From the NCBI GenBank assembly GCA_030616165.1, contig JAUWXV010000013.1, positions 1 through 31,199 on the forward strand: 31,199 bases of DNA, read 5' to 3'. Source of the stretch: a bacterium. GTDB lineage: Bacteria > SM23-31 > JAUVVT01. Positions 102 through 17,798 of this stretch are shown here, one piece after another. How positions within the stretch are numbered: position 1 is the first letter of the stretch; each line of letters starts with the position of its first letter. Under the pieces are notes generated by a model. The model saw nothing but the letters and a program-made list of their open reading frames with translations. It searched no databases and was not told where the DNA came from. The translations under genes were made by a program, and so were the position numbers.

Positions 102-241
102 CATTCGGGCTTGCCCTGTGGGTCCGCGGTTAATTTATTCAACTTTTTTACCATTTTATAAAATAAAAACTATTTTGAGATTTTATTATTTAAAAATTTT
201 AGAATATCCAATAACAGATTTAATGTATTTTATTTTAATCT

Positions 242-440
242 TATACTGTATCTATCCGAGAAAGTTATTATTAAAATAATGTAAAACAATAAACTGAAAA
301 AATTCGGGTTATCATTCATCATAATAAAAATCAATTTAAAAATAATAATAATTTACTTGATTTTAGTAAGTTAATATAGTAAAATATTATTGAGTTAACG
401 CTCATTTACTAATGTATGATAAACGAATAATTATTAAGTT
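242..440 (+). repeat. 199-bp leader repeat, copy A
   Basis: This copy matches 3447-3645 along its whole length with scattered substitutions and the same total length. Both copies precede a protein gene in the same orientation. Both stop matching 8 nt before a GTT core (GTTAGAC here). A recombination leader such as attI, with an internal promoter, is an inference from this layout. Confidence 0.8.
357..385 (+). promoter_or_regulatory. Promoter-like TTGATT-N17-TAAAAT
   Basis: TTGATT (357-362), a 17-nt spacer and TAAAAT (380-385) lie inside leader copy A. The same pair is kept in copy B as TTGATT-N17-AAATAT (3562-3590). Placement upstream of the GTT core would suit a cassette promoter. No transcription evidence exists here. 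Confidence 0.4.
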
Positions 441-448
441 AATTTTTA

Positions 449-455
449 GTTAGAC
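449..455 (+). other. Integron-core-like site GTTAGAC
   Basis: It matches the GTTRRRY crossover consensus and lies 8 nt after the end of the conserved leader, the same spacing as GTTATAC at 3654. A 7-nt degenerate motif alone is weak; the equal position in the two leaders is the argument. Confidence 0.4.
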
Positions 456-630
456 ATGATTAAATGTTATTTATATACTAATTCACTGTTTTTACGATGA
501 ATTCTTTGAAAAAGATAATATTGAGCCATAATTTCATAACCCAACCTGTTCTGGTATTTCTGCAGAATACACCAAATTACTAGGGCAGTTGGATAAAAAA
601 AATTAATAACAAAAATGGAGGAAACGCGTC

Positions 631-936
631 ATGGCTAAGTACATTGTATTACACACCCTCAAAAAAAGTGCTGAAGAAGTTTCTAAGGCTCTCAACGAAG
701 GAGCGCCTGAGATTGCGCGGGCAATGGCAGCGGGCGAGACTCCCTGTAAGTGTCTAAAAACCTGGAGTCCTTTACCACACGGAAGGACAGACTACGTGTT
801 CTGCCTATGGGAAGCTGACAAACCTGAAGATGTTGAGGCCACTATAAAGGCATTCGGACTTCTTGAGTATTTTACACTCGATTCTATGCAGGTTGATGAG
901 ATCGATTGGGAGCAATTGGCTAAAGCAGGTGGTTAG
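631..936 (+). CDS. Small conserved-hypothetical protein, 101 aa
   Basis: The start is ATG at 631 with a good ribosome binding site (TGGAGGAAA) nine or so bases upstream. The protein is small and soluble with no signal peptide or membrane segment. It looks like a compact alpha/beta fold: a beta-strand start (KYIVLHTL), an amphipathic helix with EEVSKALNEG, then strands around DYVFCLWEADKPEDVEATIKAF. This layout resembles small ferredoxin-like or dimeric-barrel stress proteins (DUF4242/DUF3303-like), but I do not recognise the family with certainty and give no function. It is first after the leader and core site, in the position of a first integron cassette. Its 3' flank is cut 10 nt after the stop by the transposase element, so no attC remains. 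Base composition is richer in GC than the flanking DNA. Confidence 0.8.
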   Translation: MAKYIVLHTLKKSAEEVSKALNEGAPEIARAMAAGETPCKCLKTWSPLPHGRTDYVFCLWEADKPEDVEATIKAFGLLEYFTLDSMQVDEIDWEQLAKAGG

Positions 937-970
937 TCAGAAATTTATTTCGGGGACACAATACTAATTA

Positions 971-999
971 TTGACAAATGTATTATATATGTGTATATT
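971..999 (+). promoter_or_regulatory. Promoter TTGACA-N17-TATATT of the transposase
   Basis: This is a near-consensus sigma70 promoter whose -10 box ends only 5 nt before the transposase ATG at 1005. A transcript from it would be almost leaderless, which would keep translation low. Confidence 0.55.
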
Positions 1000-1004
1000 T
1001 AATT

Positions 1005-1371
1005 ATGGCACGACTAGCTCGAGTTATAGCTCCCGGTTATCCTCATCATGTGATACAGCGGGGCAATCGTCGTCAGTAGACATTTTTCTGTGATGAAGAT
1101 TATGTTGCCTATATTAGACTGACATCAGAATGGTGCAAGAAGTGCAATGTTGAGGTGTGGAGTTACTGTTTAATGCCTAATCATGTACATCTTATTGCGG
1201 TTCCAAGAAATGAAGATGGACTTCGTTGTGCGTTCGGAGAAGCCCACCGGCTATATACAAATCTGATCAATACTCGTGAAAAGTGGACAGGTTATTTAGA
1301 GAATGCTACACAGACCGCTTCTACCTCGGAAACGTGGTCCGAAATTCGATGTAAAAACTAAGAATAATTAG
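1005..1371 (+). pseudogene. REP-associated tyrosine transposase (Y1/HUH) remnant
   Basis: The reading frame starts with MARLARVIAPGYPHHVIQRG, the typical N-terminus of this family. An amber stop at 1077-1079 follows at NRRQ*. It continues in frame with TFFCDEDYVAYIRL and the HUH motif in LMPNHVHLIAVP, then HRLYTNLINTREKWTGYL. At that point about 100 codons usually present, including the region after the catalytic Tyr helix, are missing. A basic tail LLPRKRGPKFDVKTKNN can be read in the next frame from 1318 and ends with TAG at 1369-1371, so there is also a frameshift near 1317. Stop codon, internal deletion and frameshift mean it cannot make an active transposase. Confidence 0.85.
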
Positions 1372-1427
1372 TAATGTGTCCCCGAATTAAAATCACGCCA
1401 TAGCCCTGCGGTCAACTTATGCAGGTC

Positions 1428-1434
1428 GTTAGGC
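1428..1434 (+). other. Integron core GTTAGGC, with residual attC arm upstream
   Basis: It is a consensus GTTRRRY box, preceded by GCAGGTC as in the 3' arm of the attC at 24545-24679. The likely remaining arm covers 1391-1434; its partner arm is missing because the transposase element abuts it. It would be the left boundary of the DUF3795 cassette. Confidence 0.55.
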
Positions 1435-1447
1435 TGAAAGGCTAAAA

Positions 1448-1831
1448 ATGAAACAATCACAATATGGTCCGTGCGGTCTTTTCTGTGGAGCTTGTGGTGC
1501 TCAAGACTGCGATGGATGCCAAAGTTCAAATGTGGATGAATATGTTTCAAATTGTAAATTCAGGACGTGCACAAAAGAAAGAAACTTTGATTTTTGTTGT
1601 TTTTGTGAAGACTATCCATGTAAAGAACTGAATGAGTTCATGAATGATAAATGGCCTCACCATTGGACCATGAAGCCTAATCTTGCATTCATTAGGGATC
1701 ACGGAGTTGATGAGTGGCTCAAAACCCAAAAGCAAGAGTGGTCCTGCAAGAGTTGCAGTGCTGAGATAATGTGGTATCAAAAGAAATGCAACTGCGGAAA
1801 GCAACTTGAAGCATGGCAAGTTCCAGCCTAA
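1448..1831 (+). CDS. DUF3795 cysteine-rich zinc-binding-like protein, 127 aa
   Basis: The protein has the Cys spacing of the DUF3795 family: C9, C13, C16, C21 and C24 near the N-terminus (CGLFCGACGAQDCDGCQ), then C36, C41, C50, C51, C53 and C58 (ending EDYPCKEL). An additional C-terminal rubredoxin-like knuckle uses C100, C103, C114 and C116. It probably binds zinc; the family has no settled biochemical role. There is no signal peptide. The gene starts 13 nt after a GTTAGGC core, and its TAA stop lies inside a GCCTAAC box (1826-1832). That is how integron cassettes are usually packed. No good ribosome binding site precedes the ATG, also common in cassettes. Confidence 0.85.
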   Translation: MKQSQYGPCGLFCGACGAQDCDGCQSSNVDEYVSNCKFRTCTKERNFDFCCFCEDYPCKELNEFMNDKWPHHWTMKPNLAFIRDHGVDEWLKTQKQEWSCKSCSAEIMWYQKKCNCGKQLEAWQVPA

Positions 1832-1855
1832 CCAGCGGTTCCTCCTTACCGCCTT
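1826..1855 (+). other. Truncated attC-like site, 5' arm
   Basis: GCCTAAC (consensus RYYYAAC) at 1826-1832 is followed by CAGCGGTT, the exact complement of AACCGCTG in the 3' arm of the 24545-24679 attC. The 3' half is gone: phrase-like repeat and transposon-end sequence begin by about 1850-1880. Confidence 0.5.
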
Positions 1856-1888
1856 TGCTCTGTGCGGTTCTTCTTTTAAATTCGGGGC

Positions 1889-1953
1889 CACAATACTTAT
1901 TTCTTGACATTATAATTAAAAAAATCATACATTTTCGTATAGCACGATTGTAG
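1889..1953 (+). repeat. Transposon-end-like repeat, copy 1
   Basis: This segment is shared with 3050-3113 and contains CACAATACTTATTTCTTGACA and TTCGTATAGCACGATTGTAG. Its start resembles the left end of the REP-type element at 947, including the TTGACA, but no transposase frame follows. Confidence 0.7.
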
Positions 1954-1979
1954 GGGCGAACCCCTGTGTTCGCCCTCTA
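1949..1979. repeat. Short palindrome with GGGCGAAC/GTTCGCCC arms
   Basis: The arms GGGGCGAA and TTCGCCC flank a short centre, followed by an A run. A diverged form appears near 5686-5699. Short palindromes of this style are dispersed in many bacterial genomes. Confidence 0.5.
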
Positions 1980-2009
1980 AAAAAACGTGTAGAAAAACTA
2001 AAAAATAAA

Positions 2010-2190
2010 AACAAATAACTGTGTCTATTTATGGCAGAAATGGTGCTATTTGTTAGCTATTAGCTGTTAGCAATTAGAATAAAGAGGCAACCCGCCGTAG
2101 CGCCCCCGCTTTCATCATTCATAAATCATAAATTTCCAAACTTATACAATCCGTCTCATCCCTGAATACATGCCCTTCGGGCTTGCGGTT
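2010..2190. repeat. Dispersed intergenic module, copy 1
   Basis: It shares order and wording with 5590-5775: TGTCTATTTATGGCAG, GTTAGCTATTAGCTGTTAGC, TTCATCATTCATAAATCAT, AATCCGTCTCATCC, then GCCCTTCGGGCTTGC. It has no coding capacity. Confidence 0.7.
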
Positions 2191-2802
2191 AATTCTCTAA
2201 ATTCGTAAATCGTCATTCGTACTTCCAAAATCCTAATCCCTCCTTGTCATTTCAACTTTCCCCCATGTCATTTCGACCTTCCTCCTTGTTATTTTCCGCC
2301 AGAGGCGGATCCACCTTTGGTGGACGACCGAAACGGAGAAACCTCAATTTTCCTCCCTGCCCTTCGGGCTTGTCCGCCTCTGGCGGGCTTTCCCTTTTTT
2401 CCCATCCTTTTAATAAAAATGGTGGGATAGACATTCTTGTCTGTCATAATTTAATTATCTTTGTATGACTGTGTAATCCTTGAAAACTTGCCCTTCGGGT
2501 CTGCGTTTTATTATTATTGTTTCAATTATTGTTTTTGTGGATAATCCTCTTATCCTGACTAATAGCTAAAAGCTAATAGCTAACAGCTTTTTATTTATCC
2601 CTTCCTTGCCCTTTGGCTCTGCGGTTCAATCCCCATTCCCAAATCGCCCTTATTTTTGTCATTTAGTCATTTGGATTTGATTTGACATTTGAGCTTTGAC
2701 ATTTTGGCTTGCCCTTCGGGTCCGTGGATACCTTCTCTTTCCCTCTGTGTCTCTGCGGTTAATTCTCTAAATTTCATTAATAAGCCTCAGGCTTATTAAC
2801 CC

Positions 2803-2904
2803 CTCACTTCAGTGAGGGGCAAAAACCATAACCTATTAACCCCTTACTTCAGTGAGGGGGTTCAACCCGGTTCAACGGTTTTCATCCATATAATCCCTCC
2901 TTGC
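2803..2904. repeat. 100-bp direct repeat, copy 2
   Basis: Nearly identical to 1-101, differing at only a few positions. It includes the same pair of CACTTCAGTG palindromes. Confidence 0.85.
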
Positions 2905-3049
2905 CCTCCGCGACTCTGCGGTTAATTCATTTCATTTGTTTATTATAAAAAAAATAAAAATTCTTTGTTTTTTGTTGATTTTGCATAATTAATAATATAT
3001 ATTATAGACACAATGAACATAGTATTCACAAAATTCGGAAATCCATACA

Positions 3050-3113
3050 CACAATACTTATTTCTTGACAATATAGTTAGAAAACTAGACATTTTCGTAT
3101 AGCACGATTGTAG
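3050..3113 (+). repeat. Transposon-end-like repeat, copy 2
   Basis: Matches 1889-1953, with the TTCTTGACA block and TTCGTATAGCACGATTGTAG kept. No transposase follows. Confidence 0.7.
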
Positions 3114-3252
3114 AGGCTCACCGTCGTTATAAATTCAGGTCAAAATTCTTGTCGTAATTCCTAATTCCTAATTCGTAAATCCTTTCTCTGTGCCCTCTGT
3201 GGTTCCATTTTTCAATCGTAAATCCCCCTTATCATTCCCGCCCCCCCTTGTC

Positions 3253-3272
3253 ATTCCCGCGCACGCGGGAAT
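3253..3272. repeat. Palindrome ATTCCCGCG-CA-CGCGGGAAT
   Basis: A perfect 9-bp stem with a 2-nt loop, preceded by GTC and followed by CC. The pattern is known as a dispersed palindromic repeat in many genomes; a diverged half copy lies just upstream at about 3232-3240. Confidence 0.6.
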
Positions 3273-3364
3273 CCATACAAAATATTTCCCCATTCCCCTT
3301 CGGGTCTGTGCTCTCTGTGGTTAATTCACTTCATTTGTTTATTATAAAAAAAAATAAAAATCCT

Positions 3365-3393
3365 TTGACTTTCCTAAAATAAGTTGTTAAATT
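3365..3393 (+). promoter_or_regulatory. Promoter-like TTGACT-N17-TAAATT
   Basis: It sits at the end of a phrase-like repeat (TTTGTTTATTATAAAA..AATCCTTTGACT). The same arrangement with TTGACT-N17-TATATT is at 5844-5872, suggesting the repeat module carries an outward promoter. Confidence 0.4.
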
Positions 3394-3446
3394 TAAATAA
3401 ATTAAAAATATTTACAAATTTGATCCACACGATTATCATTGAACCA

Positions 3447-3645
3447 TATACTATATCTATCCGAGAAAGTTATTATTAAAATAGTGTAAAACAATAAACT
3501 GAAAAAATTCGGTTTATCATTCATTATAATAAAAATCAATTTATAATTGTTAACAATTTACTTGATTTTAAAAAATTAATATAGAAATATTTTATTGAGT
3601 TAACGATCATTTACTAATATATGATAAGTGAATAATTATTAAGTT
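3447..3645 (+). repeat. 199-bp leader repeat, copy B
   Basis: Copy of 242-440 with the same length and orientation, upstream of the protease gene. It contains TTGATT-N17-AAATAT at 3562-3590. Matching stops 8 nt before GTTATAC (3654). Confidence 0.8.
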
Positions 3646-3653
3646 GATCATTG

Positions 3654-3660
3654 GTTATAC
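3654..3660 (+). other. Integron-core-like site GTTATAC, left boundary of protease cassette
   Basis: Identical to the terminal box of the attC at 5251-5257 and positioned after leader copy B as GTTAGAC is after copy A. A cassette cut at G|TT would run from 3654 to 5251, about 1.6 kb, and contain the whole protease gene. Confidence 0.55.
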
Positions 3661-3798: not shown

Positions 3799-4935
3799 AT
3801 GGCTAAACGTAAAAAAAATGATCGTCCGCTTAGTTTTAGGCAACTGAAACGGCTAAAACCGAAACCACCCAAAGCATCTCCACCTGAATTAATGAATATC
3901 AATCTGGGTTCAATTACCTTACCCGTACTTAATGCGCCAAAAGTTATAAGGGATTGGAGCGGAGAAAATTCCTACCGGCTTGTGGCTGAGGTGTCGGGCG
4001 CTGAACTTGAAAAATTTGGGAATCAGGTTATCAGGACAATTCCATTTGAACGTATTCCAGAGATTAGGTTGAGCAAAAACAATGTAGAGGAATTTGAGAG
4101 AATTACAGTCCTTGAGGGTAACTATCCGTTATATGCCCGAATGAATTACTTACCTGTCATTTCGCAAATTGATTTGGAAATGGAGGAAAGGTTTAGAAAA
4201 ATAAGAAAGAAGGATGACAAACCCACAAATATTTTTGGAGCTGATGACCGTTATATTTATAATGATTCAAGTTTTCCATGGAGGACGGTTGGCCGTGTCT
4301 GGACCGCCAGCGGGGCTTGTGCTGGCTGCACAATTGGTCCTCGCCTTGTATTGACAGCAAGTCATTGCATTAATTGGATAAGTGGAGGAGGAGTAGGTTG
4401 GATAAAATTTTCACCTGCCTATTATAATGGAAATGGACCCTGGGGCGAATATTATGCGACAAGGGTGATTTATTGGAACAGAGCACTGGGAGGATTAAGC
4501 GATTTAGAGACTGCTTTTGATTATGTCGTGCTGGTAATGAATGACTATGTTGGTAATCATGTCGGTTATCCCGGATACAGAACTTATTCAAGTTCGTGGA
4601 ATGGAGATTCTGTATGGCAACATATGGGATACCCCGGGGACTTAACATCAACGCAGCGTCCTGCATTTCAAGGCAACTGTACGATATCTTCTACCTCCTC
4701 AGAAAGCCTCTCCGGACAAACCGGATATGTAATGGGGCACTATAATGACATTACCGGCGGTCATTCTGGTGGTCCGGTATGGGGATGGTGGTCAAGAGAA
4801 GCATGGCCCAGGGTAGTAGGTGTTCAAAGTGCTGAAGCCTCCACGCCTGCCTACGATACATCCGGTGATAATGAATTTGGTGGCGGACCGGCATTGTGTT
4901 CACTTATTTCATGGGCACGGAGTAATTATCCTTAG
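3799..4935 (+). CDS. Trypsin-like (S1 family, glutamyl-endopeptidase-like) serine protease, 378 aa
   Basis: The start is ATG at 3799 with a strong AGGAGGA site. The peptidase domain spans about residues 150-378. The triad reads His189 in LVLTASHC, Asp241 in TAFDYVVLV and Ser323 in TGGHSGGPVW. Cys pairs fit S1 peptidases (C174/C177/C190, C294). The N-terminal 150 residues form a separate region: a Lys/Pro-rich start (MAKRKKNDRP, KPKPPKASPP) followed by a domain that may be a propeptide. No signal peptide is visible, so either it acts inside the cell or the export route is unusual. A bacteriophage- or toxin-linked role cannot be excluded, but nothing here shows it. It lies between a GTTATAC core (3654) and a full attC-like hairpin (5127-5257), so it is probably cassette-borne. 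Protease identity is secure; substrate is unknown. Confidence 0.9.
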   Translation: MAKRKKNDRPLSFRQLKRLKPKPPKASPPELMNINLGSITLPVLNAPKVIRDWSGENSYRLVAEVSGAELEKFGNQVIRTIPFERIPEIRLSKNNVEEFERITVLEGNYPLYARMNYLPVISQIDLEMEERFRKIRKKDDKPTNIFGADDRYIYNDSSFPWRTVGRVWTASGACAGCTIGPRLVLTASHCINWISGGGVGWIKFSPAYYNGNGPWGEYYATRVIYWNRALGGLSDLETAFDYVVLVMNDYVGNHVGYPGYRTYSSSWNGDSVWQHMGYPGDLTSTQRPAFQGNCTISSTSSESLSGQTGYVMGHYNDITGGHSGGPVWGWWSREAWPRVVGVQSAEASTPAYDTSGDNEFGGGPALCSLISWARSNYP

Positions 4936-5126: not shown

Positions 5127-5257
5127 GTATAACTTTCGCTTCAACCTGACGCCGCCAATTTTGGATTGTTTAATAAAGTTAATTGAAAACAAAAACTTAT
5201 GTAGTGTTCAAATAGTTCAGAGGTGGCGTGGCGGCGCAGGTTAAGCGTGCGTTATAC
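5127..5257 (+). other. attC-like integron recombination site, 131 bp
   Basis: The outer boxes are GTATAAC (5127-5133) and GTTATAC (5251-5257), exact complements. Inside, the 5' arm CGCTTCAACCTGACGCCGCC pairs with the 3' arm GGCGGCGCAGGTTAAGCG, leaving single unpaired bases (C in CTTCAACC, A in CTGACGCC) on one strand only. Complementary arms with one-sided extrahelical bases and a long variable centre are the structural marks of attC sites. No integrase gene is in the window. Confidence 0.8.
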
Positions 5258-12585: not shown

Positions 12586-13836
12586 ATGATTTTAGAAAAA
12601 TATTCTATTGGAATCGGTGACAGATTTGCGCATCAAGGCAAAGCACAACTTGATGCATTAATTAAGGCAAAAGCACAGGGTGTTTTTATTGTTCCTGTCT
12701 GGAATAAATCTTACAGAGAGCACACTATAATAAAATCCGTTCCTGCAGATACTCGTAATGAGGCTGACGAAGCTGTGAATGCAGTCGGTTGGAAAGATGC
12801 ATATTACGTGGACGCCGATCACATTGGGCTTAAAAACGTTGGCGATTTCATGGAATCAAGCGATTTCTTTACCCTCGATGTTGCTGATTTTATCTCAGAA
12901 ATTTCAGAAGAACGAGAATTACATGAATTTATCAAAAAACAGGTTAAATATGTCGGGATATTTGATATACCCGGAATTGATGAATCCTTTCAGATAACAG
13001 TTGAAATGGTCGAAAAGACCGCACGTAAATTTTTGTATGCCATAAAAGAAGCTGGTAAAATTTATAGACACATTGAAAGCGTAAAAGGAAAGGACGCATT
13101 CGTAACCGAGGTGTCTGTTGATGAATCTAATGAGCCCCAGACACCAGTTGAACTTTTCTTTATCCTGTCTGCTGTCGCAGAAGAAGGAATTCCTGCACAA
13201 ACGATAGCCCCTAAGTTCACTGGCAGATTTAATAAAGGTGTTGATTATGTCGGCGATTTGCAGCAATTTACCAAGGAATTTGAAGAAGATATTGCCATAA
13301 TCAATTTTGCCATAAAAGAATTTTCACTTCCGGCGAACCTGAAATTGAGTATTCATTCTGGCAGTGATAAGTTTTCAATTTATCCTCCCATCAGAAAAGC
13401 GCTGCAAAAATTTGATACCGGTCTACATCTTAAAACTGCAGGTACGACATGGCTTGAAGAGTTGATTGGTCTTGCTATGGCAGGCGGCGACGGTCTGGAC
13501 ATTGTAAAAGAGGTTTATAAAAAAGCTTACTTCAGGTTTGAGGAACTCTGCAAACCATATGCCGCAGTAATCGATATTAATAAAGATAGACTTCCCTCTC
13601 CCGAAGCCGTTGGCAGGTGGGACGAAGGGACATACGCTTCTACATTAAGGCATGACCAAAAATGTGAATTGTATAATTCTAATTTCCGTCAGCTCCTGCA
13701 CATCGGATACAAAATTGCCGCTGAAATGGTCAACCGTTATCTTGATGGATTAGTAAAACATGAAAAGGTGATTGCACAAAATGTAACTGAAAACATTTAC
13801 GAAAGACATTTAAAACCAATATTTATCGGGGAATGA
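12586..13836 (+). CDS. uxaE: Tagaturonate epimerase, 416 aa
   Basis: This is a full-length member of the UxaE family, which in Thermotoga converts D-tagaturonate to D-fructuronate and so joins galacturonate to the glucuronate route. Recognised from the N-terminus YSIGIGDRFAHQGKAQLDAL, the KFTGRFNKGVDYVGDL segment and the sugar-binding-like LKLSIHSGSDKFSIYPPI, followed by GLHLKTAGTTWLEELIGLA and the RHDQKCELYNSNFRQLLH tail. It has no signal peptide, so it acts in the cytoplasm, unlike the exported glycan enzymes around it. ATG at 12586 is preceded by AAAAGGAG. A terminator lies at 13878. A degenerate second copy of its last 69 codons is at 17484-17693. Partner genes such as uxaC and uxuB are not in the window. 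Confidence 0.9.
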   Translation: MILEKYSIGIGDRFAHQGKAQLDALIKAKAQGVFIVPVWNKSYREHTIIKSVPADTRNEADEAVNAVGWKDAYYVDADHIGLKNVGDFMESSDFFTLDVADFISEISEERELHEFIKKQVKYVGIFDIPGIDESFQITVEMVEKTARKFLYAIKEAGKIYRHIESVKGKDAFVTEVSVDESNEPQTPVELFFILSAVAEEGIPAQTIAPKFTGRFNKGVDYVGDLQQFTKEFEEDIAIINFAIKEFSLPANLKLSIHSGSDKFSIYPPIRKALQKFDTGLHLKTAGTTWLEELIGLAMAGGDGLDIVKEVYKKAYFRFEELCKPYAAVIDINKDRLPSPEAVGRWDEGTYASTLRHDQKCELYNSNFRQLLHIGYKIAAEMVNRYLDGLVKHEKVIAQNVTENIYERHLKPIFIGE

Positions 13837-15802: not shown

Positions 15803-17467
15803 ATGATTAAGACGAAATATTGCAGTATAATATGGTTTTTATGCCTCTTTATGACAACTTTTTTATACTGCGAAAAGAATGGCAATGCTGTTCCGAATGG
15901 TGTATCAGACATCTCCTATGATGTTGTTGTTTATGGTGGAACATCCGGCGGCGTGGTTGCGGCAGTTAAAGTCGCCCGTATGGGCAAGTCCGTCGTATTG
16001 ATCGAGCCAGGCAAACACCTGGGTGGCCTAAGCAGCGGCGGTCTGGGTGCCACCGACATCGGCAACAAAGCGGCAATTGGGGGAATATCCCGCGAATTTT
16101 ATCAACGTATTCGTAAACACTATTCGAAAGACTCAGCATGGCGGCAGGAAAAACGTAGTGAGTTCCAGGGAAGGGGACATACTGAAGGAGAAGATGCCGC
16201 ATGGACTTTTGAGCCGCATGTTGCTGAGAAGGTCTTTAATGACATGATTCTTGAAGCTAAGGTTAAAGTTGTATATAGGGAGCGGCTCGACCTCAAGAAG
16301 GGTGTGAAGAAAAATGGGACGGGCATAACAGAAATAGTGATGGAATCAGGGCGGAAATTCCGTGGGAAAATGTTTATTGACGCCACCTATGAAGGTGATT
16401 TGATGGCTAAGGCGGGTGTGTCCTACACTTTTGGTCGCGAGGCTAACTCAAAGTACAATGAAACTCTCAGCGGTGTGCAGGTCAAACATTCTACACATCA
16501 TCAATTCATAAAACCTGTTGATGGATATATCATCCCAGGCGACCGTTCTAGTGGTTTGCTTCCCGGCATCAATTCTTCAATTGAAAAAGACGGCACCGGG
16601 GATAAGCGGATACAGGCATACTGTTTTCGTCTCTGTGCTACCGATGTACCTGAAAATCGTGTTCCATGGCCCAAACCGAGAAATTACAGTCCGATGCGAT
16701 ATGAACTTCTGTTGCGTAACTTTGAGGCAGGCGACCACCGCATTCCATGGAATCCGGTCATGATGCCAAACCGAAAAACCGACTCAAACAACAACTTCGC
16801 TTTCTCCACCGACAACATCGGTATGAACTATGACTATCCCGATGGCGACTACGAAACTCGCCGCCTTATTATCCAGGAACATGAGGACTATCAGAAAGGG
16901 CTAATGTGGACGCTTGCTAATCATCAGCGTGTGCCGCAGAAGATCCGAGAGTATTTTCAGAGGTGGGGGTTGTCCAAAGATGAATTTGTTGATAACGACA
17001 ACTGGCCGCATCAGCTTTATGTGCGGGAAGCCCGTCGTATGGTCAGTGATTATGTCATGACACAGCATAACTGTCAGGGACGAGTGGTGGCTGAAGATCC
17101 AATAGGACTTGCCGCCTACACAATGGATTCGCACAACATACAGCGCTACGTTGATGAGAATGGTTATGTCCGTAATGAGGGTGACGTGCAGGTTGGCGGT
17201 TTTCCGCCATACCCCATATCTTACCGTTCAATCGTGCCCAAAGAGTCCGAGTGTACTAACCTTTTCGTACCAATGTGCCCGTCATCTTCTCACATGGCTT
17301 TTGGCTCAATTCGTATGGAGCCAGTATTTATGGTGTTTGCTCAATCATCAGCGACGGCCGCCATGCAGGCTATTGAAGAAGGTGTGGCAGTACAAAAGAT
17401 CGACTATCTAAAGTTGTCTCAGCGCCTGTTGGCTGACAAACAGGTTCTCAGTTGGCTAACACGTTAA
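15803..17467 (+). CDS. FAD-dependent oxidoreductase (FAD_oxidored family), 554 aa
   Basis: The start at 15803 has an AAGGAGAAAG site. The N-terminus is hydrophobic with FLYC23 at its end, possibly an imperfect lipobox, so the enzyme may be exported. The Rossmann FAD-binding motif VVVYGGTSGGVVAA (41-54) is followed by LIEPGKHLGGLSSGGLG (66-82) with Glu67 or Glu68 as ribose ligand. Later conserved parts include FIDATYEGDLMAKAGVSYTFGRE and, near the C-terminus, YPISYRSIVPK, FVPMCPSSSHMAFGSIRMEPVFM. Members of this family occur in glycan-utilisation loci of FCB and planctomycete bacteria, where their substrate is usually unknown. It follows the sulfatase by 207 bp in the same direction and is probably part of the same glycan module. 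Confidence 0.88.
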   Translation: MIKTKYCSIIWFLCLFMTTFLYCEKNGNAVPNGVSDISYDVVVYGGTSGGVVAAVKVARMGKSVVLIEPGKHLGGLSSGGLGATDIGNKAAIGGISREFYQRIRKHYSKDSAWRQEKRSEFQGRGHTEGEDAAWTFEPHVAEKVFNDMILEAKVKVVYRERLDLKKGVKKNGTGITEIVMESGRKFRGKMFIDATYEGDLMAKAGVSYTFGREANSKYNETLSGVQVKHSTHHQFIKPVDGYIIPGDRSSGLLPGINSSIEKDGTGDKRIQAYCFRLCATDVPENRVPWPKPRNYSPMRYELLLRNFEAGDHRIPWNPVMMPNRKTDSNNNFAFSTDNIGMNYDYPDGDYETRRLIIQEHEDYQKGLMWTLANHQRVPQKIREYFQRWGLSKDEFVDNDNWPHQLYVREARRMVSDYVMTQHNCQGRVVAEDPIGLAAYTMDSHNIQRYVDENGYVRNEGDVQVGGFPPYPISYRSIVPKESECTNLFVPMCPSSSHMAFGSIRMEPVFMVFAQSSATAAMQAIEEGVAVQKIDYLKLSQRLLADKQVLSWLTR

Positions 17468-17798
17468 CATGTGGGAGAGATAGACATACTATTCTACATT
17501 AAGGCATGATAAAAAATGTGAATTTTATAATTCTAATTTCTATCAGTTTCTTCATAATAGATACAAAATTGCAGATGAAATGAGTAACCGTTAAGTTGAT
17601 GCATTAGTAAAGCATGAAAGGATAATCAGGCAAAATGCAGCTGAAAATGCATACGAGAAACATTTAAACCAATATTTACAAAAATTTAGTTAGGGTTTAA
17701 TGAGTGAGCCTATGACGATTTGTAGAAAAAGAGAATTTCAGCGGCTTGGGATTGCACATTAATGGTGTAGATTGCCTATAAAAAAGAAGGAGGAAAGC
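17468..17798. other. Intergenic region, oxidoreductase / GH2
   Basis: 331 bp. Most of it is the uxaE 3'-end remnant (17484-17693). The rest contains the AAGAAGGAGGAAAGC ribosome binding site of the GH2 gene. Confidence 0.7.
17484..17693 (+). pseudogene. Degenerate copy of the 3' end of uxaE
   Basis: The sequence reads S-T-L-R-H-D-K-K-C-E-F-Y-N-S-N-F in the frame from 17484, matching STLRHDQKCELYNSNF of the intact uxaE (13630 onward). Homology at DNA level, clearly above 70% by eye, extends over nearly 200 bp. An in-frame TAA at 17592-17594 and a one-base deletion near 17670 make it non-functional. Only the last 69 codons exist; no upstream part is found before it. Confidence 0.85.

Follow-up and report, generated by a model that had tools for sequence, protein, structure and literature searches.

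Probable attI sites with cassette promoters, without an integrase gene, at more than 20 places in a bacterial genome

We analyzed a 31,199-nt stretch of DNA from a sediment bacterium (here, the window) that carries two copies of a leader sequence ending at an integron-like core. In all likelihood, the leaders are attI-promoter modules, lacking intI, whose multiplication has left more than 20 of them across the genome, where they dock inserted gene cassettes that are read from the cassette promoter (Pc). The first-pass annotation had proposed an attI site with its cassette promoter, and this reading is supported by cassettes closed by attC sites, matches between core and R'' boxes, exchange of a cassette between leaders, and a conserved promoter. 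Judged from sequence, the identification of the leader as attI plus Pc is strongly supported. Each leader would end at a crossover point between the G and the TT of its core, cassettes would have been inserted there by an integron integrase and transcribed from Pc, and the module, often in the order attI-cassette-attC-attI-cassette, would by its multiplication have placed many captured genes directly behind a promoter of their own.

Leader family, promoter, and attI end

The two window copies of the leader have the same length (199 nt; 242 to 440 and 3447 to 3645) and align without gaps at 90% identity, confirming the duplication reported in the first-pass annotation. The GTT cores reported to follow them, GTTAGAC and GTTATAC, are both present, and the similarity of the pair runs through them, reaching beyond 199 nt in both directions (234 to 455 and 3439 to 3660; 88%). 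The match had been said to stop 8 nt before the GTT; this holds for the window pair as a local run of mismatches but not as the true end of the leader, since the conserved block in the alignment of all copies extends to the G of GTT. Nor is the leader simply duplicated in tandem, as had been thought; instead, it belongs to a dispersed family of more than 20 copies.

In the genome from which the window comes (a 3.74-Mb draft in 343 contigs, 90% complete), 13 copies were recovered by DNA search and 23 (E < 1 × 10−3) by a sequence-only model built from 15 copies. This number is far above chance; the model had no match in three other genomes of the phylum. The same model found four copies in two further genomes of the phylum, three in "bacterium SM23_31" (G005, whose contig C216 corresponds to LJUD01000009.1) and one in G002; the window derives from an uncultured lineage of the class to which SM23_31 belongs. 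A scan for the pattern of the attI end matched only bacterium SM23_31 among public genomes and found nothing in viral contigs. Several contigs of the window's genome carry two or three leaders together. The window pair are each other's closest relatives, as are the pair on contig C172. Left ends are common only within small groups of copies and the other flanks are unrelated, while the right end is fixed. Three leader copies (L043, 5144 to 5195; L049, 2212 to 2334; L045, 1431 to 1544) share one palindromic insert, TATCCGCCAGAGGCGGATAA, unchanged in sequence and located in each of them at one fixed point shortly past the promoter.

The aligned copies share a TTGAYTTT-like −35 element, a spacer of about 17 nt, a TAWRTT-like −10 element, about 60 nt of further sequence, and a version of AATAATTATTAAGTTAATTATTA directly abutting GTTRRRY. 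In a 100-nt alignment, conservation is highest in the −35 box and at the attI end, the copies otherwise differing by 15 to 30% or more, and most copies terminate in AATTATTAAGTTAATTATTA followed by GTTRRRY. Promoter-like matches by themselves are no more frequent than chance predicts in AT-rich DNA such as this (26 found versus 19 expected), so the promoter reading relies on the sigma-70-like promoter having been kept in every aligned copy; that conservation supports the promoter-like pair noted earlier in each window leader, which is present in both. The predicted Pc lies upstream of the insertion point and points into the cassettes, as it should in an attI site, and is presumably active. Transcription is predicted to begin roughly 57 nt ahead of the crossover, near position 392 in copy a, compared to 65 bp for Pc of Vibrio cholerae (PMC3948777).

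GTT stands at the junction in 15 of the 23 copies and the strict motif GTTRRRY in 10, the rest being decayed or truncated there. The expectation that further copies would all be followed by GTTRRRY and by unrelated genes was thus borne out for the genes and for this share of the cores; the eight copies without GTT count against the attI-Pc reading. Where it is intact, the motif would represent the R box expected at the insertion point of an attI site. No conserved secondary structure was found in the leader alignment, which fits a double-stranded attI rather than an attC. We also considered the leader as a promoter-bearing attC and rejected this reading, as its right end shows neither an R''-L''/L'-R' hairpin nor conserved pairing.

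Table 1. Features of the window around the two leader copies
Feature	Position	Strand	Basis
Leader copy a, putative attI with Pc; conserved core module at about 342-448	234-448	+	90% identity to copy b; 1 of 23 genome copies
Predicted Pc of copy a, TTGATT-17-TAAAAT	357-385	+	−35 kept in all aligned copies; −10 TAWRTT-like
Core GTTAGAC, predicted crossover G/TT, start of cassette A	449-455	+	Junction of leader (72%) and cassette (93%) against C233
Cassette A, 101-aa gene at 631-936	450-943	+	Same cassette behind another leader on C233
Inserted element, inverted ends 944-972/1363-1391, breaks end of cassette A	944-1391		29-nt inverted repeat, 93% complementary
Probable right-half remnant of attC, core GTTAGGC (1428-1434), start of cassette B	1392-1434	+	Read from sequence, weak
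Cassette B gene, DUF3795 protein	1448-1831	+	PF12675, E = 3 × 10−7
Left arm of putative cassette B attC, R'' GCCTAAC complementary to core at 1428	1826-1877	+	Overlaps the gene's stop codon
Leader copy b, putative attI with Pc, −35 at 3562-3567	3439-3653	+	Similarity to copy a; genome family
Predicted Pc of copy b, TTGATT-17-AAATAT	3562-3590	+	Read from sequence
Core GTTATAC, predicted crossover G/TT, start of cassette C	3654-3660	+	Exact complement of R'' of attC at 5127
Cassette C gene, 378 aa, possible trypsin-like peptidase domain	3799-4935	+	PF13365, E = 1 × 10−4, below cutoff
attC of cassette C, 131 nt, R'' GTATAAC ... R' GTTATAC	5127-5257	+	Hairpin; matches on both strands

Cassettes, attC sites, and cassette exchange

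Nearly all leader copies precede a different codirectional open reading frame (ORF), usually starting 12 to 50 nt past the core. These genes include ones for TIR-domain, pentapeptide-repeat, radical SAM, and DUF2971 proteins and, read by eye, a HicB/HicA-like pair; genes after tandem leader copies are unrelated to each other. On contig C177 (L049, 2346 to 5158), the gene behind the leader is present in tandem repeated copies (77 to 82% identical), unlike other cassettes. About ten loci have an attC-like hairpin closing the gene or genes that come first, most clearly in the window (5127 to 5257), on C233 (6289 to 6422), C20 (2165 to 2228), and C208 (3291 to 3364), and at two loci of SM23_31, which also shows the leader-cassette-attC arrangement; more than half of the leader copies have no recognizable attC after the first gene, which counts against the attI-Pc reading. 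Over 207 kb of contigs, both strands included, we found 41 attC-like matches against 14 in shuffled sequence.

An integron takes the TTRRRY of its attI junction from the first cassette, the R'' box of which must be complementary to it. Here, the core was exactly complementary to the R'' of the closing attC in six of nine loci (permutation P = 0.002, an optimistic value because the set was partly gathered by searching for complements). The exact pairs are GTTATAC/GTATAAC in the window, GTTAGGC/GCCTAAC at C233a and C211, ATTAGGT/ACCTAAC at C208b, and GTTAGGT/ACCTAAC and ATTAGGT/ACCTAAT in SM23_31. Cassettes therefore appear to be closed by attC sites whose R'' complements the TTRRRY of the junction, as the attI reading predicts.

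The genome has two copies of cassette A, one following leader a of the window and the other following a leader on C233. The two cassette copies are 93% identical compared to 72% for their leaders, with the step in identity falling at the core, and the two leaders belong to different clades (support 0.998). Such a step is what cassette movement at the crossover predicts, suggesting that a cassette changed sites with its break at the core. The 101-aa gene of cassette A matched no Pfam family. The insertion that breaks the end of this cassette in the window (Table 1) is missing from the C233 copy; by eye, it holds the start of a REP-associated (Y1-type) transposase, and related repeats lie at 1878 to 2018, at 3050 to 3117, and on contig C204.

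Read as a whole, this part of the window runs from attI-Pc a through cassettes A and B and a repeat-rich, decayed stretch to attI-Pc b, cassette C, and its attC. The remainder of the cassette B attC is interrupted by repeats. In all, the window shows a single clear attC plus two remnants. The clear attC has an arm duplex of −25.8 kcal/mol, with R'' and R' paired at 7 of 7 positions. The PF13365 match to the cassette C protein scored 23.4 bits against a cutoff of 27.6, below the Pfam threshold. Elsewhere in the window, a sugar-degradation gene region contains a 218-nt direct repeat (13608 to 13825 and 17462 to 17678; 78% identical) at and just past gene ends.

Integrase remnants and multiplication of the module

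No intI was found beside the window leaders, and no protein in six genomes of the phylum scored above the TIGR02249 cutoff; given that these assemblies are incomplete drafts, the lack of an intact intI may be no more than a gap in the data. A leader copy on C260, however, adjoins the start of a divergent ORF reading ..RYKHYSPRTEKNYIQWIKDYI, the remainder of the gene being lost. This start has only two NCBIfam matches, both to integron integrase (TIGR02249, positions 9 to 33; E = 0.005), and also matches PF13495 (E = 2.6 × 10−4). The remnant, about 25 residues long and with weak E-values, reads as an integron-integrase N terminus in the classical divergent orientation to the leader. Its shortness and the lack of an intact intI weigh against the attI-Pc reading. 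The earlier description "without integrase" accordingly stands for the window copies and, as regards an intact gene, for the six genomes, but not for C260, where the integrase gene expected beside one copy appears to be represented by a short divergent N-terminal remnant only. Other recombinases matching TIGR02249, among them the better matches, miss the central part of the integron-integrase profile; we read them as XerC/XerD. The left end of the leader (242 to 340) was considered as a decayed minus-strand intI start; ATGAATGAT is suggestive, there is no convincing protein match, and we do not claim it. The IntI that inserted the cassettes would since have been lost, be unassembled, or have been supplied in trans.

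A similar integron-integrase N-terminal remnant (LDQVRYALRTRHYSFKTEKAYI) is present in the relative SM23_31 (L088, contig C152, 1378 to 2330), in the orientation shared by the cassette-like gene that comes after it and by an attC-like hairpin with the end CCGTTATGC. On contig C22 (L090, about 899 to 1200 and 4400 to 4800), two decayed tyrosine-recombinase C termini end in ..NPLD, with ACGTTASCTGCAAGG no more than about 200 nt beyond each of them; these may belong to a second, different cassette system.

Movement of the module in the manner of a cassette and local duplication may together account for the copies. The kinship within the window pair and within the C172 pair counts for duplication. 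On C172, a leader unit starts just past the CGTT of the attC closing an exonuclease-like cassette, and on C266 the same 48-nt left extension (40 of 48 positions identical) starts just past CGTT after a HicBA-like cassette. These starts place a gene-less unit, with attC at its left and attI at its right, in two different places, suggesting that the attI-Pc module may be able to move as a gene-less promoter cassette (C172b and C266). It is a further and rather doubtful step, which we take only tentatively, to a distributed integron in which the module, itself a mobile promoter cassette with no gene, was carried by IntI to its more than 20 positions.

The leaders could also be left over from numerous integrons, separate or duplicated, that lost their intI genes by deletion; attI would then have spread through segmental duplication of entire integrons, the site itself being immobile. 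The close kinship of the window and C172 pairs, the intI remnant beside one leader, and the decay of the arrays and their invasion by repeats are consistent with this history, which is a serious candidate even if somewhat short of probable; it accounts poorly for the unrelated flanks of different copies (bar left ends within small groups), the unrelated genes after tandem copies, and the modules that start just past an attC in two loci.

That the leader is a MITE-like mobile promoter element, landing upstream of genes by chance near coincidental attC sites, seems highly improbable: although the copies are many, AT rich, and carry a promoter directed into the gene, their left ends differ while the right end is fixed, and that right end lies where cassettes begin with a match to attC boxes and exactly where the cassette exchange took place. 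Still harder to sustain, and very improbable in our view, is a regulatory 5' RNA (riboswitch or thermometer) heading a regulon. The leader has no Rfam match and no conserved fold, and its homology gives out at the integron core, in most copies a good distance ahead of the start codon; what such an RNA would explain is the conserved promoter and leader ahead of many unrelated genes.

Comparison with known integrons

A normal integron has one attI site beside one integrase. With a single docking site and a single promoter, as is assumed of integrons, transcription would reach mainly the first cassettes. The departure here would lie in the number and dispersal of attI-Pc modules and in the lack of an intact intI among the sequences found; several or dispersed attI sites are an arrangement undescribed in the open-access literature searched, the coverage of which is incomplete. 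More than 20 dispersed docking sites in a lineage would amount to a different way of storing and expressing cassettes and would demonstrate that an attI site can itself be multiplied. Searches for cassettes that depend on intI or on clustered attC sites would miss such systems, and the leader offers a handle for finding cassettes in this uncultured phylum.

The sedentary chromosomal integron of the V. cholerae superintegron type (PMC3948777) resembles our loci in having a promoter placed shortly before the insertion point, a junction marked by a GTT core, attC-closed cassettes, and divergent intI (here a probable remnant) beside one copy. It differs in having one site, whereas here more than 20 are scattered, without an intact intI and with short groups of cassettes in place of a long array. 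CALINs (PMC9024848) likewise hold cassettes and attC sites without intI, but each short group here opens with its own attI-Pc, and most have at most one clear attC, under the two-attC threshold. At attG secondary sites (described in PMC12901181), cassettes also lie outside a single array; attG sites diverge strongly from classical att sites, whereas the leaders form one conserved family with a promoter. The delta-attI-type cassettes of mobile integrons, which are excised and inserted by IntI1, have in common with our loci an attI-derived site that follows a cassette within an array (PMC12901181); here, in contrast, a full attI with Pc is repeated ahead of genes, and the C172/C266 unit is gene-less. 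Gene-less promoter cassettes exist in Vibrionaceae superintegrons (PMC11014356) and likewise drive the next cassette of an array. Those lie in a single superintegron array, whereas the units of C172b and C266, two loci only, start at the CGTT of an attC and end in attI sequence without a hairpin. If true, a distributed integron would give many cassettes their own promoter and docking site, compared to one array and one promoter.
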